IMG/VR virus record: IMGVR_UViG_3300025109_000021
Span: 1 to 38,182 of that record
Source of the DNA: a virus
DNA: 38,182 bases
Strand: one strand, 5' to 3'
This document shows positions 123 through 3,870 of the stretch, piece by piece. The notes below the pieces were generated by a model. The model was not told the DNA's origin, made no database searches, and worked only from the letters and a program-made list of their open reading frames with translations. Each line of letters opens with the position of its first letter. Position 1 is the stretch's first letter. Position numbers and translations under genes: made by a program.

Positions 123-2111
123 TTATTTTCGGTATCTTTGGCCCTTCCAGGCTTCAGCCCCAATGGGGATTCCTTCAGCCCAATCTGGTTTCTCTTCCAT
201 GATCCGGCCAAACTCTTCAACGCTGCCGGTATCCTTCTTGGCTACTGCTATTATCTCATCATGCACATGCAATACCGTTTTATATGTACCACTTTGCTCT
301 ACCCTGGCCAAAGCACAACACAACAAATCTCTGGCGATAGCCTGAACAATATTCTCAACAAGCTTTCCTCCGTAGGTATCGGTCAGTCTCCAGACCTTGC
401 TCATAGAATCTTCAGAAAAGAACTGTACAGCAGGAGCCATAGCCCCCCAGGGTGTAACTTTTTCTATAACCCTTGGCATGTAATAGTGCAGACTTCTGCC
501 CGTTGGTAGGCTAACCACTAAGAATCTACCTGCCATTCTAAATACTACTCCATGCCCGTATTCTACTTTCCCCCCATCTTTCACCACTCCTAGAGCACAC
601 TTCTCTATCTCTCTCCAGCCTTTAGGAATCGCGCTGTAGCTTTCTCGAAAAGTATTGAGGGCTTCCTGCAGAAGTGCAGCAGGAGCCTTGATTTTATAGC
701 TCTTACAGGTGTCTTTAAACTTTTGCAGACCCATCCCATATCCAAGAGCAAGCACCGCTACCTTACCAAGCATTCTCTCTTCTTTGTTATCTGGCCCTAA
801 AGCTGGGTTCCTATAAATTTTTTGTGCAGTATCCACATAGAGATCCCTACCTTCGGCAAAAGCTTTCATGTAACCAGGTTCATCTACCAACCAGCCCAAA
901 ACTCTGGCTTCAATGGAAGCAAAATCAGCCACATAGAAATCCTCACCCTCTCCAGGTATCAGGACAGAGCGCAGCAAACTAGAAAACAAAGCGTTGGGGG
1001 CAGCATAGATCAACCGGAGCCACGCTAAGTCTTTCTCTCTAACAACCTCAATCGCGGATTCCACCTCCCCCTCGTCTTTAAAGGCCCCACGCGGTAGGTT
1101 CTGAGGCTGAAAGATTCTCCCCGCCCAGCGCCCGGTGTTTGCCCCGTGGTACATCAAGGTCCCCCGCATCTTGTTATCCACACAAAGCGCCCTCTCTACC
1201 GCATAGTATTTCTTAACTGAAACTTTACTTGTTAGTCTTCGGATTGCCAGGGCCTCTACTGCTTCGCTAAACATCTTCATATCGGTCCAACCCGCCAGGG
1301 CCGAATCTATACTTTCTTTAGTAATGTCAGGCTCTTTATATCCTCTCTCTTTTAACCACTCAAAGACTTTATCCCTCTGAGTAGGAGCAAGCCCGGTAAT
1401 CTCTGTAAACCTTTTGACAAGTTCAGCACTATGCTCCTCATAAAGATCGATCACATCTTCTACCAGGTCTATGTCTACTTCTACCCCGCGGTCTACTATC
1501 TTCTGATCCATCAGGTATACCGCTCTCTCAAACTCAGGCAGGTCAGACAGGATTCTATCGATTGCCCGTTCTACTTCTACATCTTGCTTGCAATAATCAT
1601 AGAGATTTTCGTACCTGGCAGAAGCATTATCCCTGGTAAACCGTACCGAAGAGTTATTCTTGGTAGGTTTACGCGGTTTGCTCAGGGCATACATATCATA
1701 GCGCCCCTGAACATCTTTTTTGGTAGTACCCAAAGCCAGAGCTGCCTTTTCTAGTTGTCTGGGCAGGGCATGGTAGGCACACTTGGCAGCAGTACAGTAC
1801 CAACGCTCTAAGGGAGTCTCAGGAAAGCCAATCTTAGATCCAGGACCCCCGTTGAGCATTACCCTCTCAAAATTAGCGTTATGAGCATAGAGTTTTACAG
1901 TAGGATCTTTAAGCGCCCTAAATAAAGCAGGAGGTATCCCTTCAGTCTCGGGAATCCAAAGCCCTACCTCTCCATCACCTACCGCCCAGCCAATACAAAG
2001 AATCTCTGTACTCGGGTGTTCTGCGTATGGGTAGACTCCGGTGGCCTTCAGATCGATTTCGGAGAAGGTTTCGATATCTATGTGGACTTTTTTAGTGTGG
2101 ATTTTGTTCAC
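123..2111 (-). CDS. Family A DNA polymerase with 3'-5' exonuclease domain
   Basis: This is the phage replicative DNA polymerase (662 aa), of the PolA/T7 gp5 type without a 5' nuclease domain. The N-terminal proofreading domain shows Exo I at D12-I-E14, an Exo II-like segment LYAHNANFE (about residues 74-82) and Exo III YCKQDV (about 173-178). The polymerase domain shows motif A DFASIEARV (about 398-406), motif B RMLGKVAVLALGYG (about 450-463) and motif C VHDEI (about 619-623), giving the two catalytic aspartates. The start is GTG at 2111, overlapping the methyltransferase stop as GTGA, with AAAGG 8 bases upstream. It probably copies the genome with the PrimPol-helicase and ssDNA-binding protein of this window. 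A 23-bp segment (1291-1313) recurs exactly inside the 2669-aa late gene. Confidence 0.95.
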   Translation of the reverse strand: MNKIHTKKVHIDIETFSEIDLKATGVYPYAEHPSTEILCIGWAVGDGEVGLWIPETEGIPPALFRALKDPTVKLYAHNANFERVMLNGGPGSKIGFPETPLERWYCTAAKCAYHALPRQLEKAALALGTTKKDVQGRYDMYALSKPRKPTKNNSSVRFTRDNASARYENLYDYCKQDVEVERAIDRILSDLPEFERAVYLMDQKIVDRGVEVDIDLVEDVIDLYEEHSAELVKRFTEITGLAPTQRDKVFEWLKERGYKEPDITKESIDSALAGWTDMKMFSEAVEALAIRRLTSKVSVKKYYAVERALCVDNKMRGTLMYHGANTGRWAGRIFQPQNLPRGAFKDEGEVESAIEVVREKDLAWLRLIYAAPNALFSSLLRSVLIPGEGEDFYVADFASIEARVLGWLVDEPGYMKAFAEGRDLYVDTAQKIYRNPALGPDNKEERMLGKVAVLALGYGMGLQKFKDTCKSYKIKAPAALLQEALNTFRESYSAIPKGWREIEKCALGVVKDGGKVEYGHGVVFRMAGRFLVVSLPTGRSLHYYMPRVIEKVTPWGAMAPAVQFFSEDSMSKVWRLTDTYGGKLVENIVQAIARDLLCCALARVEQSGTYKTVLHVHDEIIAVAKKDTGSVEEFGRIMEEKPDWAEGIPIGAEAWKGQRYRK
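1291..1313. repeat. Copy 1 of an exact 23-bp dispersed repeat
   Basis: Starting with CCCGCCAGGG and ending with CTATACT, these 23 bases are identical to 22451-22473 and in the same orientation. Here the minus strand is read as SIDSALAG of the DNA polymerase. In the other copy it is read in a different frame, so protein homology does not explain the match. Confidence 0.85.
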
Positions 2112-3265
2112 AAGTTAAACCTTTCCCCAATCCACCGCACAACCGGCACAGCTTTCGAATTGCCAACCGCTCTATATGCTTGAGTGTCGCTGTAACCTGG
2201 TACGTTGATTAAGTAGTCATCTGGGAATCCCTGCAATCTAAGGGCTTCTATTGGTGTTATTCTTCGAACCTTCCGATCAACCGTGAACCCCGCTACACAC
2301 ATTTGAGGCAGTCCACCATCGTCCCCGCTTCTAAGTGTTGGTGACTTATTTTCAATAGCGTCTCTTCCTGCGTCGTTTTGTGTGAAGGCTATACAGGCTT
2401 CTTGGCCGCCGGCTCGTGTCCTTGCTGTAAGAGCTCCCATTTGCTCTATTCTGGCGTTTTGTTCTGAGTCTACGCCGTAAAGAATACAAGGCTGCCTTTG
2501 TCTTCCTTGTGCCGTATTGAGTGTGGGGCATTTTCCATCGTTTGATATTCTAGGAGTCCCGTCTTGGCTTCTTGGCTCAAAAACAAAAGTTTCCGATTCT
2601 ACGTCAAGCCGTCCGTGTCCGTGAGCATTTAGGCACATGGCGGTTTCGCCTGTGCTAGAAGGGCTTTTTCCAGGGCTGCGGGTAATTTCTTTCCTCTCTT
2701 CTCCGCCCTTCTCAATATCCCTTCGCAAGCCCTCTTGCTCAAATAAAACTTCTCCGGGACGTCTTGGGTCGCCACTAATATGTCCGACAAGAAAGATTCT
2801 TCGGCGTCTTTGCGGGACTCCGAAGTTTTGTGCGTCCAGTACCCGCCATGCCAGGCCATACCCGTATTGAGAAAACGACCAGAGGATTTGTTCGAAGACC
2901 GATCCGTTCCCCATTGAAAGCACCCCCGGCACATTTTCCCAGACAAACCACTCGGGGCGTACTGCTCCAACCAAGTCAATAAAATCGAGTGTGAGATTTC
3001 CTCTGTCATCATCAAATCCTTTCCTTTTTCCGGCTATACTGAACGCTTGGCAGGGGGTGCCCCCCACTATTAAGTCTGGTTTTTCAGGCATATCCCAGGT
3101 CTCCCACTGGGTAAGATCGCCATAATTTTTTATGTTTGGATAGTGATGTTTCAGTACCGCACAAGGGAACTTTTCTATTTCTGAAAGTCCTATACACTCC
3201 CAGCCCAAAGGCCCCCAGGCTACTGTAGCGGCTTCTATACCGCTGCATACCGAGAGGTATTTCAC
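2108..3265 (-). CDS. DNA (cytosine-C5) methyltransferase
   Basis: The enzyme (385 aa) transfers a methyl group from SAM to C5 of cytosine in DNA. Visible motifs in order are: SAM-binding motif I (SVCSGIEAA, residues 5-13), motif IV with the catalytic Cys (GGTPCQAFS, C72), motif VI WENVPG, motif VIII QRRRRIFLVG, a variable middle part likely holding the target-recognition domain (about 180-310), motif IX RRITPIEALRLQGFP and motif X YRAVGNSKAVPV. The start is GTG at 3265, overlapping the upstream stop (GTGA). No partner restriction enzyme is visible, so an orphan phage methyltransferase that shields phage DNA from host restriction is the likely role. A second, +1-shifted frame is open for about 127 codons inside this gene. 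Confidence 0.95.
   Translation of the reverse strand: MKYLSVCSGIEAATVAWGPLGWECIGLSEIEKFPCAVLKHHYPNIKNYGDLTQWETWDMPEKPDLIVGGTPCQAFSIAGKRKGFDDDRGNLTLDFIDLVGAVRPEWFVWENVPGVLSMGNGSVFEQILWSFSQYGYGLAWRVLDAQNFGVPQRRRRIFLVGHISGDPRRPGEVLFEQEGLRRDIEKGGEERKEITRSPGKSPSSTGETAMCLNAHGHGRLDVESETFVFEPRSQDGTPRISNDGKCPTLNTAQGRQRQPCILYGVDSEQNARIEQMGALTARTRAGGQEACIAFTQNDAGRDAIENKSPTLRSGDDGGLPQMCVAGFTVDRKVRRITPIEALRLQGFPDDYLINVPGYSDTQAYRAVGNSKAVPVVRWIGERFNL
2629..3012 (-). CDS. Possible overprinted ORF inside the methyltransferase gene
   Basis: A frame shifted +1 from the methyltransferase stays open from ATG 3012 (or ATG 3009) to 2629, about 127 codons. AAAGGA lies 4 bases before the first ATG and 7 before the second, so ribosome entry is possible. 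The product is basic; it contains TGMAWHGGYWTHKTSES, SFLSDILV and then FYLSKRACEGILRRAEKRG followed by KKLPAALEKAL. From memory, the pattern YLSxxACxGILRRAxxRGKxLP recurs in phage proteins of unknown function; I could not verify this. In the other frame the same bases encode motifs VI and VIII and then the poorly conserved linker. It may be a true second gene, or an open shadow kept by methyltransferase constraint. Confidence 0.45.
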   Translation of the reverse strand: MMTEEISHSILLTWLEQYAPSGLSGKMCRGCFQWGTDRSSNKSSGRFLNTGMAWHGGYWTHKTSESRKDAEESFLSDILVATQDVPEKFYLSKRACEGILRRAEKRGKKLPAALEKALLAQAKPPCA

Positions 3266-3870
3266 AGGCCCAACCTATCTTCTTCCCTGCGAAGTTTTCC
3301 CACAGCGCGTATTCCTCGGTGCTCTAGTTGGGCTATCCTTGTACTGCTACGGCCCATACTTCTTGCTATTTCTGCCTGAGACTGAACACCCCTGCCCCCC
3401 AGCCCCAACCTACGCCTGATTACTTCCGCACTTTTTGGGTGTATCCTGTCTAGTAAATTCTCCAGGTACTCAGCGTCTTCATGCTCTATAGCTACCGATT
3501 CGGGAGTCTGGTATTCGATCTGCTCAAACTGAGGCCCCGTTAACAGCCCGGCAGATATCTCATGGTCTTTGATGATGGTCTTATCAAGTGACCCCCCTTC
3601 TCTTCTTACCTGTTGGTTTAGTTCCAAGATCTCAGGAGGCATAATGTCTGAGAAAACAACTTTAAAGAATTCTTCTAGCCTTTCTATGAATTTTTTTGCG
3701 GCCCCATGTTTTATGTCAGAGGCGTAAGTCAAGTTAGATAGATCATAAAGCAGCCCGATACTCACCCCTATTTCTTTTGCCAAAAAAGGTACGCTCTTCC
3801 CCGTTCGCTGCGTGTAATCATGCAGGAATTTATTCTTTACTTTGGTTATCGTGACTACTTGTACACTCAT
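3262..3870 (-). CDS. Regulator with sigma-70 region 4-like C-terminal HTH
   Basis: This protein (202 aa) probably controls transcription. Residues about 145-197 fit sigma region 4: LLDRIHPKSAEVIRRRLGLG, then a helix-turn-helix with QAEIARSMGRSSTRIAQLEH, then a basic end. Region 4 normally contacts the -35 box. The N-terminal part (PFLAKEIGVSIGLLYDLS, about 27-44) resembles another HTH of Cro/C1 style. Region 2, which contacts the -10, is not visible, so it is not a complete sigma factor. The ATG at 3870 overlaps the MerR-like gene's stop (ATGA), and its own stop overlaps the methyltransferase start. Its place in the early operon makes a late-gene activator an attractive but unproven role. Confidence 0.7.
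   Translation of the reverse strand: MSVQVVTITKVKNKFLHDYTQRTGKSVPFLAKEIGVSIGLLYDLSNLTYASDIKHGAAKKFIERLEEFFKVVFSDIMPPEILELNQQVRREGGSLDKTIIKDHEISAGLLTGPQFEQIEYQTPESVAIEHEDAEYLENLLDRIHPKSAEVIRRRLGLGGRGVQSQAEIARSMGRSSTRIAQLEHRGIRAVGKLRREEDRLGL

Follow-up and report, generated by a model that had tools for sequence, protein, structure and literature searches.

A probable overprinted gene in the +1 frame of phage C5 cytosine methyltransferase genes

A C5 cytosine DNA methyltransferase (MTase) gene in a 38,182 nt viral sequence (IMG/VR record IMGVR_UViG_3300025109_000021; this whole stretch is referred to as the window) encloses a second open reading frame, in the +1 frame, which is very likely a genuine coding gene in the family of MTases to which it belongs. 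Selection on the +1 frame and start signals of its own are shown; translation has not been observed, and there is neither a peptide nor a ribosome footprint. The initial annotation, made from the sequence alone, had called this ORF probably a real gene if the second frame proved conserved in the linker, and at the level of the family that view is supported.

The MTase (nt 2108–3265, minus strand) is 385 aa in length and matches PF00145 (E = 1.4e-61) and TIGR00675 (dcm). The adjoining gene (nt 3262–3870, minus strand) has a sigma-70 region 4 domain that is barely above the Pfam cut-off (24.5 vs 24.1 bits). The overprinted gene (nt 2629–3012, minus strand), recognised by its ORF coordinates and by family conservation, specifies 127 aa plus a stop. 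It begins with ATG at nt 3012, has a second ATG at nt 3009, and closes with a stop codon at nt 2631–2629. A possible ribosome-binding site, AAAGGA (nt 3017–3022, minus strand), precedes the first ATG by 4 nt and the second by 7 nt. The coordinates, frame relation, AAAGGA, two ATGs and peptides given in the initial annotation all held, its estimate of about 127 codons matching the 127 aa. From the first ATG the product begins MMTEEISHSILLTWLEQ. Its conserved C-terminal half (residues 74–127; nt 2632–2793, minus strand) lies in the linker that follows motif VIII of the MTase, and was delimited by comparing identity in the +1 and main frames and by 19 conserved +1 positions. Within it are the element DILVATQDVPEKFYLS (nt 2737–2784, minus strand), which by hhalign and HMM comparison resembles L.DILE..V..KYYLS, the linker that some ordinary MTases have in their main frame, and ACEGILRRAEKRGKKLPAALEKAL (nt 2659–2730, minus strand), a two-helix hairpin predicted by AlphaFold2 on a relative (L179). 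Upstream of the ATG, an in-frame TAG (nt 3034–3036, minus strand) closes the +1 frame; many relatives stay open at this point and have starts that lie further upstream. The profile match in the window extends from nt 3084 to 2638 and contains two TAG and one TAA codons, all of them upstream of the open ORF.

The openness of the +1 frame was assessed in MTases retrieved with a part of the main protein that the ORF does not cover (residues 1–58), from 80 viral and 80 bacterial genome contigs, and stops were counted from motif IV (PCQ) to 50 codons past motif VIII. With a regular expression as MTase finder only 73 of 247 loci could be mapped, and another mapping took its place; 4 truncated and 11 unmapped loci were dropped from the 247 before counting. 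All 77 mapped and long-enough viral homologs are free of +1 stops across this span, as are 50 of the 72 genome-derived homologs, the remaining 22 carrying stops. The +2 frame, as a control, is open in 0/77 and 0/72. The C-motif pattern fails in 10 of the 77 viral and 13 of the 72 genome homologs. Expected numbers of stops were obtained by shuffling synonymous codons while keeping the MTase protein, with near-identical genes collapsed to 100 non-redundant genes (35 from the viral set and 46 from the genome set; one of 101 was dropped for unknown bases). In these there are 51 stops in the +1 frame against 358 expected, and 560 against 623 in the +2 frame; the 35 viral genes have none against 122 expected. 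The window's own gene has one against 5.0 (P ~0.015), and this single stop comes before the ATG. Across the family, +1 stops fall mostly in the N-part. Between column 74 and motif VIII a stop occurs in only 4 of 101 aligned genes, and none occurs from motif VIII to column 350 (L041 and L046 were omitted from one printed family alignment).

Selection was measured on both frames in 102 close pairs, by classing single transitions according to their effect in each frame, with identical genes collapsed. The pair and identity sets, and the genes counted with the linker HMM below, include loci fetched via the hidden protein as well as via the MTase. Values of dN/dS in the +1 frame are 0.40–0.45 in the N-part and 0.14–0.23 in the C-part, compared with 0.72–2.54 upstream and 1.17–1.78 downstream of the overlap in the same frame. 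The MTase frame shows 0.22–0.35 in the C-part (the linker) and 0.04–0.13 elsewhere, so the suggestion in the initial annotation that the MTase is under weak constraint after motif VIII held. Since the +1 frame is strongly constrained there and the MTase frame is loose, the linker is mainly the territory of the hidden gene. After motif VIII, 19 positions of the +1 frame, which include L, E, L, S, A, C, G, I, L, R, R, A, L, P, L, A, L, hold a single residue in 88–99% of 101 genes. Conservation of the MTase residues that overlap them is mostly 20–65%, a few reaching 79–85%.

Two other groups of MTases were measured as well. In 32 streptococcal pairs, +1 dN/dS is 0.44–0.51 in the N-part and 0.23 in the C-part (NN/NS only), with controls of 1.17–2.79. 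In 22 Paenibacillus-type pairs with a long +1 ORF the values are 0.29–0.37 (N) and 0.09–0.20 (C), and the main frame shows 0.33–0.72 in the C-part. The upstream control of the latter group is 2.13–2.87; the downstream control, on few changes, is not clean, with +1 NN/NS at 0.36 (0.05–1.06) on 2 and 6 changes, though SN/SS is at 1.58.

One could argue that there is no gene at all, and that the frame stays open merely through MTase motifs and codon bias. Part of the N-half of the +1 frame is indeed forced by motifs IV–VIII, and ordinary MTases give weak, mostly N-half matches that contain stops. Against this, shuffles that preserve the protein predict 358 stops where 51 occur, and the 19 linker positions are far better conserved in the +1 frame than are most of the main-frame residues they overlap. 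For the family, the shuffle and conservation tests refute this reading, which is all but excluded. The initial annotation had stated that frequent +1 stops in close homologs, or +1 conservation no greater than a background that keeps the MTase sequence, would refute a second gene. Both tests were run and neither did so, as stops are rare and conservation exceeds the background.

The copy in the window is N-terminally shortened, with a later start, and its clear conservation is limited to the C-half. Over that half it is 85% identical to one near relative (L002) in the +1 frame and 68% in the main frame, and the corresponding figures for another (L003) are 70% and 61%. Over the N-half, +1 identity is 34% to L002 and 27% to L003, and the same frame outside the ORF gives 29–48%; against these two nearest relatives the N-half of the window's ORF is not distinguishable from background.

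Start signals proper to the +1 frame are present in three MTase families at the level of sequence; initiation itself has not been observed. Just upstream of motif IV, SD ≥6 with ATG, GTG or TTG occurs in 19 of 100 window-like genes against 2.1 expected (the highest of 40 simulations gave 5), and SD ≥5 with a start occurs in 33 against 8. The +2 control has no such case in the 100 genes at either threshold. A typical sequence before motif IV is AAGGAGTGGAATATAAATG. The span searched for starts was chosen after looking at the data. In the region used by the window's own gene, 5 to 40 codons after PCQ, starts with SD ≥5 are found in 19 of 100 genes vs 8.1 expected (highest of 40 simulations, 14), and a second count over the same region gave 49 vs 32; because an SD excess is present here also, the start site varies across the family. 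With near-identical genes collapsed, SD ≥5 starts are found in 11 of 13 streptococcal genes (4.3 expected) and 28 of 46 Paenibacillus-type genes (7.9 expected).

The C-terminal end of the hidden proteins has the consensus LSDILE..V..RYYLS.KAC.GILRRAEKRGK.LP..L..AL, and L.DILE..VD.KY.LS follows motif VIII in the main frame of some Dcm-like MTases of the ordinary kind. A first set of ordinary linkers, 16 of 49 control regions picked by a loose KY.LS pattern, gave only a weak profile match (hhalign probability 44.5% local, 2.3% global). After revision of the set (one dropped, four added by hand, and realigned) the probability rose to 91–92% for the window-like C-end alone and 94–96% when streptococcal relatives were included, with a score of 42 vs ≤17.6 for permuted controls; hhalign E-values refer to one comparison each. 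Because the revised set was partly hand-picked, an unselected test was added on 41 regions from outside the family. Seven of these main-frame control regions reach 8 bits or more with the combined hidden C-end model (best, 22), compared with 0/41 reversed regions and none in 20 shuffled sets; the window-like model alone finds 3 real, 0 reversed and 0 shuffled. Conversely, an HMM of the ordinary linker matches the +1 products of 219/306 window-like and 78/78 streptococcal genes, missing 87 of the former, and matches none of the main-frame products of the same 306 and 78 genes. As the 7 of 41 show, most ordinary MTases lack a visible element of this kind, so a main frame without it is not necessarily deficient.

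A comparable case is seen in the Paenibacillus type, where the +1 product ends in LNP.WVE.LMGFP.GWTD. This end matches classical motif IX (hhalign 96.9%, score 40 vs 11.6), and the classical motif IX pattern occurs in 0/46 of the main frames of this type. The motif-IX-like ends were collected by a loose pattern (51 distinct ends); the strict form, WVE.LMGFP, is present in 15/46. Taken with the linker HMM results, an MTase-like piece is thus found in the +1 frame and not in the main frame on two occasions. Elsewhere, motif IX is in the main frame in 245 of the 259 occurrences where it was detected. In three loci (L041, L046 and L410; the first two are the same contigs as L398 and L399) the hidden ORF continues in frame into motif IX, so that the MTase looks split over two overlapping ORFs. 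Three further observations may be placed here. In Paenibacillus phages Fitz and DevRi (L476, L477) a +1 ORF of 236 codons has an LNP.WVE.LMGFP.GWTD-like end, and that of DevRi is annotated as a second MTase (CDS 1985–2689 of the locus); ORFs of this kind recall a type of protein annotated elsewhere as a stand-alone hypothetical protein or methylase. In Staphylococcus phage IME-SA4 (L478) a +1 ORF with a QMNIF start ends just before a DILE element that is in the main frame, possibly an intermediate state. Lastly, an ordinary bacterial MTase (L294, nt 1399–2373, minus strand) has QVSLF in its main frame just before a DIL..KY linker, which parallels the peptide (see below) and linker of the hidden proteins.

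The likeness of the C-terminal end to an MTase linker raises two alternative explanations. Ribosomes might shift frame while translating the MTase and produce an isoform that ends after the +1 linker, with no separate protein being made. In favour of this, the end resembles the ordinary linker in the wrong frame, and in L041, L046 and L410 the +1 ORF reads into motif IX, so frames have been swapped in evolution. However, avoidance of stops and +1 dN/dS below 1 are also found upstream of motif VIII, where a shift at motif VIII would not need them, and there is an excess of SD-plus-start signals in three families; we regard frameshifting as unlikely, though still possible. Alternatively, the +1 ORF could be the decaying relic of an old frameshift in an MTase, a reading favoured by the resemblance to the ordinary linker and by the shortened N-part in the window. 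The strong purifying selection in the C-part of the +1 frame among present-day pairs largely refutes it, and it is very unlikely.

Structure prediction adds little beyond the C-terminal hairpin. AlphaFold2 on the relative L179 gave a two-helix block with pLDDT 95–98 over residues 121–147; the model is confident for only about 33 residues and is poor outside the hairpin. In the MTase model, which rests on an alignment of 21 rows only, residues 178–332 have pLDDT below 50, so that disorder of the MTase linker is suggested but not established. Foldseek with the hidden-protein model returned one match (E 6.7), and no fold match of note. Of 87 +1 products searched, none matches PF00145 or the dcm model, and no HNH family is among their Pfam matches. 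Pfam, NCBIfam and PDB sequence searches with hidden proteins gave scattered single-member matches or none, and no PDB match. PADLOC reported weak MTase_II matches in 5/87 (best, 0.0018) and 2/87 (best, 2.9e-5).

Many of the hidden proteins begin with a short peptide that resembles QL(S/D)LF-type peptides, the bacterial sliding-clamp-binding motif. Its recurrence is shown; that it binds DnaN is inferred, and there are no binding data. The pattern Q-[LIM]-[STDNE]-[LFMI]-[FLW] occurs in the N-part of 49 of 100 window-like +1 frames (1.2 expected). In 43 of these it lies 8 to 15 codons before PCQ, directly behind the start, and in 5 it lies at +30 to +33; these five belong to the P1/Pseudomonas type and start late, for example with MQLTQLDLF or MQLTLL. 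The other 51 of the 100 lack it, P1 among them (its own hidden protein starts MQLTTNG and has no match to the pattern), and it is likewise absent from the window's +1 product. It is found in 34 of 39 streptococcal genes (0.45 expected), at −18, and in 43 of 55 Paenibacillus-type genes (0.65 expected), at −9, so that it is near the N-terminus at three different places along the MTase. The pattern was defined after the window-like proteins had been viewed, and its last place was narrowed to F or W for the other two sets, members of which had also been seen before it was applied. Identical genes were collapsed, and the count of 43/55 is limited to +1 ORFs of at least 120 codons (34/46 without the limit).

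Genes of this kind are widespread among phages and prophages. The initial annotation likened the C-terminal half to a pattern found in many phage proteins, and this held. PHROG 16143 matches the window's product (E 4.2e-6) and 63 of 87 relatives, and PHROG 1008 matches 9 of the 87; both are labelled DNA methyltransferase. The window's hidden protein matches at least 561 of 600 candidate viral-contig stretches, and matches include P1 dmt (L083) and phages of Mycobacterium, Vibrio, Roseobacter and Streptococcus. At E ≤1e-3, 155 phage records match the hidden protein of a relative; among the 60 of these that were considered, only a few of them in detail, there was no clear stand-alone copy, the inspected matches being inside MTase genes. 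In 299 Pseudomonadota genomes, 14 have a match at E ≤1e-3, of which 5 are strong (E 3.7e-30 or better) and 9 weak, the latter mostly in the N-half and with stops, as the motifs of ordinary MTases would force. MM1-type genes have no +1 stops against 142.7 expected in 24 non-redundant genes (+2 frame, 248 vs 270), and the hidden ORF of pneumococcal phage MM1, which has a DILE..V..FLS end, is annotated as ORF14 (L250). Paenibacillus-type prophages have 15 against 227 expected in 46 genes (near-identical ones collapsed), 42 of these being stop-free. By contrast, only 2 of 12 Staphylococcus IME-SA4-like genes, in which the DILE element is in the main frame, have no +1 stop. Two disrupted loci were also observed. 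In Mycobacterium phage Thibault (L247) the MTase is fragmented around an HNH gene, with gp104, as annotated, occupying the hidden frame, and in the P1-like Escherichia phage vB_EcoM-813R1 (L082) the MTase frame is broken and a hypothetical protein is annotated in the hidden frame.

The hidden gene is not wholly undescribed, and in this the initial annotation partly failed, as the overlap is already in print for streptococcal phages and MM1 annotates the ORF. In the 5093-group phages of S. thermophilus, C5 MTase products in different frames overlap totally, which was called striking (PMC5601072); MM1 and Tn5252 were cited there for an equivalent overlap. These are likewise two products from one stretch of DNA, and MM1 ORF14 is a member of the wider family described here. 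The section concerned notes the overlap; it assigns no function, has no test of selection, and mentions neither start signals nor homology of an element nor occurrence outside streptococci. An active C5 MTase of a pneumococcal phage has been described (PMC6755750), and the nested gene is not named in the relevant passages. No paper that treats the wider family, or its selection, starts or element likeness, was found in the open-access literature searched, which included no preprints and few subscription papers; PMC11445585 and PMC11054321 are not relevant to the nested gene. The ShiLan domain, a hidden out-of-frame HNH endonuclease within a phage methylase (PMC11855218), is likewise an out-of-frame protein gene in a phage DNA methylase gene. 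It is, however, a mobile insertion of 202 aa in the third frame, whereas the gene described here is a +1-frame gene that overlies the MTase motifs themselves and shows no match to HNH. M.AquI is a two-subunit C5 MTase with its elements divided over two overlapping ORFs. L041 and L046 resemble it, but in the present family the main ORF normally runs on to motif IX and the second ORF is nested. With sliding-clamp binders the likeness is confined to the N-terminal peptide. Roughly half of the window-like relatives and most of the streptococcal and Paenibacillus-type ones have this peptide; the window's copy does not.

As to function, the hidden product may be a partner of the MTase that supplies a segment in trans and tethers the enzyme to the clamp. 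Of the explanations considered this is the one we favour, but it is an inference without peptide, footprint or binding data, held at somewhat less than even odds; because the linker element is found in a minority of ordinary MTases only, our confidence was lowered. The partnership proposed in the initial annotation remains an inference, although the likeness of the C-terminal end to an MTase element makes it more likely. In outline, translation of the nested gene would begin at an internal start of its own within the phage MTase gene, and the C-terminal element of its product would be a homolog of a segment found in some ordinary C5 MTases (here the DILE..V..KYYLS linker after motif VIII). An old frameshift would have moved this segment into the +1 frame, the main frame being overprinted with loose sequence. 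The partner would then dock on the MTase and return the segment in trans and, in roughly half or more of relatives, its N-terminal QL(S/T)LF-like peptide would bind the host sliding clamp, so that the tethered MTase might methylate new phage DNA at the fork. PCNA recruits DNMT1, an analogy for a clamp-tethered MTase. The coding constraint, start signals, C-end likeness and recurrence of the peptide are shown; the frameshift history, docking, clamp binding and purpose are inferred. A bolder reading, which is possible, is that several phage C5 MTase families are bipartite enzymes, each with a catalytic chain and a +1 subunit that returns a missing segment and carries the clamp peptide. The segment returned could be the DILE linker in one set and a motif-IX-like piece in another.

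It is also possible that the nested gene is real and its product acts apart from methylation, for example as a clamp binder acting to slow replication of the host or to block its defence, with the MTase gene as a mere carrier. The coding evidence would be identical, a clamp-like peptide makes sense without an MTase, and the products have no PF00145 or dcm match. Against such an independent role, the C-terminal ends are like MTase elements in two separate families, and in the few phage records inspected the match lay within MTase genes.

Whichever role applies, genes of this type are dropped or mislabelled by annotation; the MM1 record says methyltransferase, and the P1 record lacks a CDS for the hidden ORF. 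The family provides an example, in DNA phages, of a gene nested on the same strand as another, with selection quantified for each frame, and links a class of phage proteins without known function to a familiar enzyme, as a partner that can be tested. If the partner reading is true, it would represent a replication-coupled methylation device in bacterial viruses, and a natural enzyme with its parts in two frames of one DNA.
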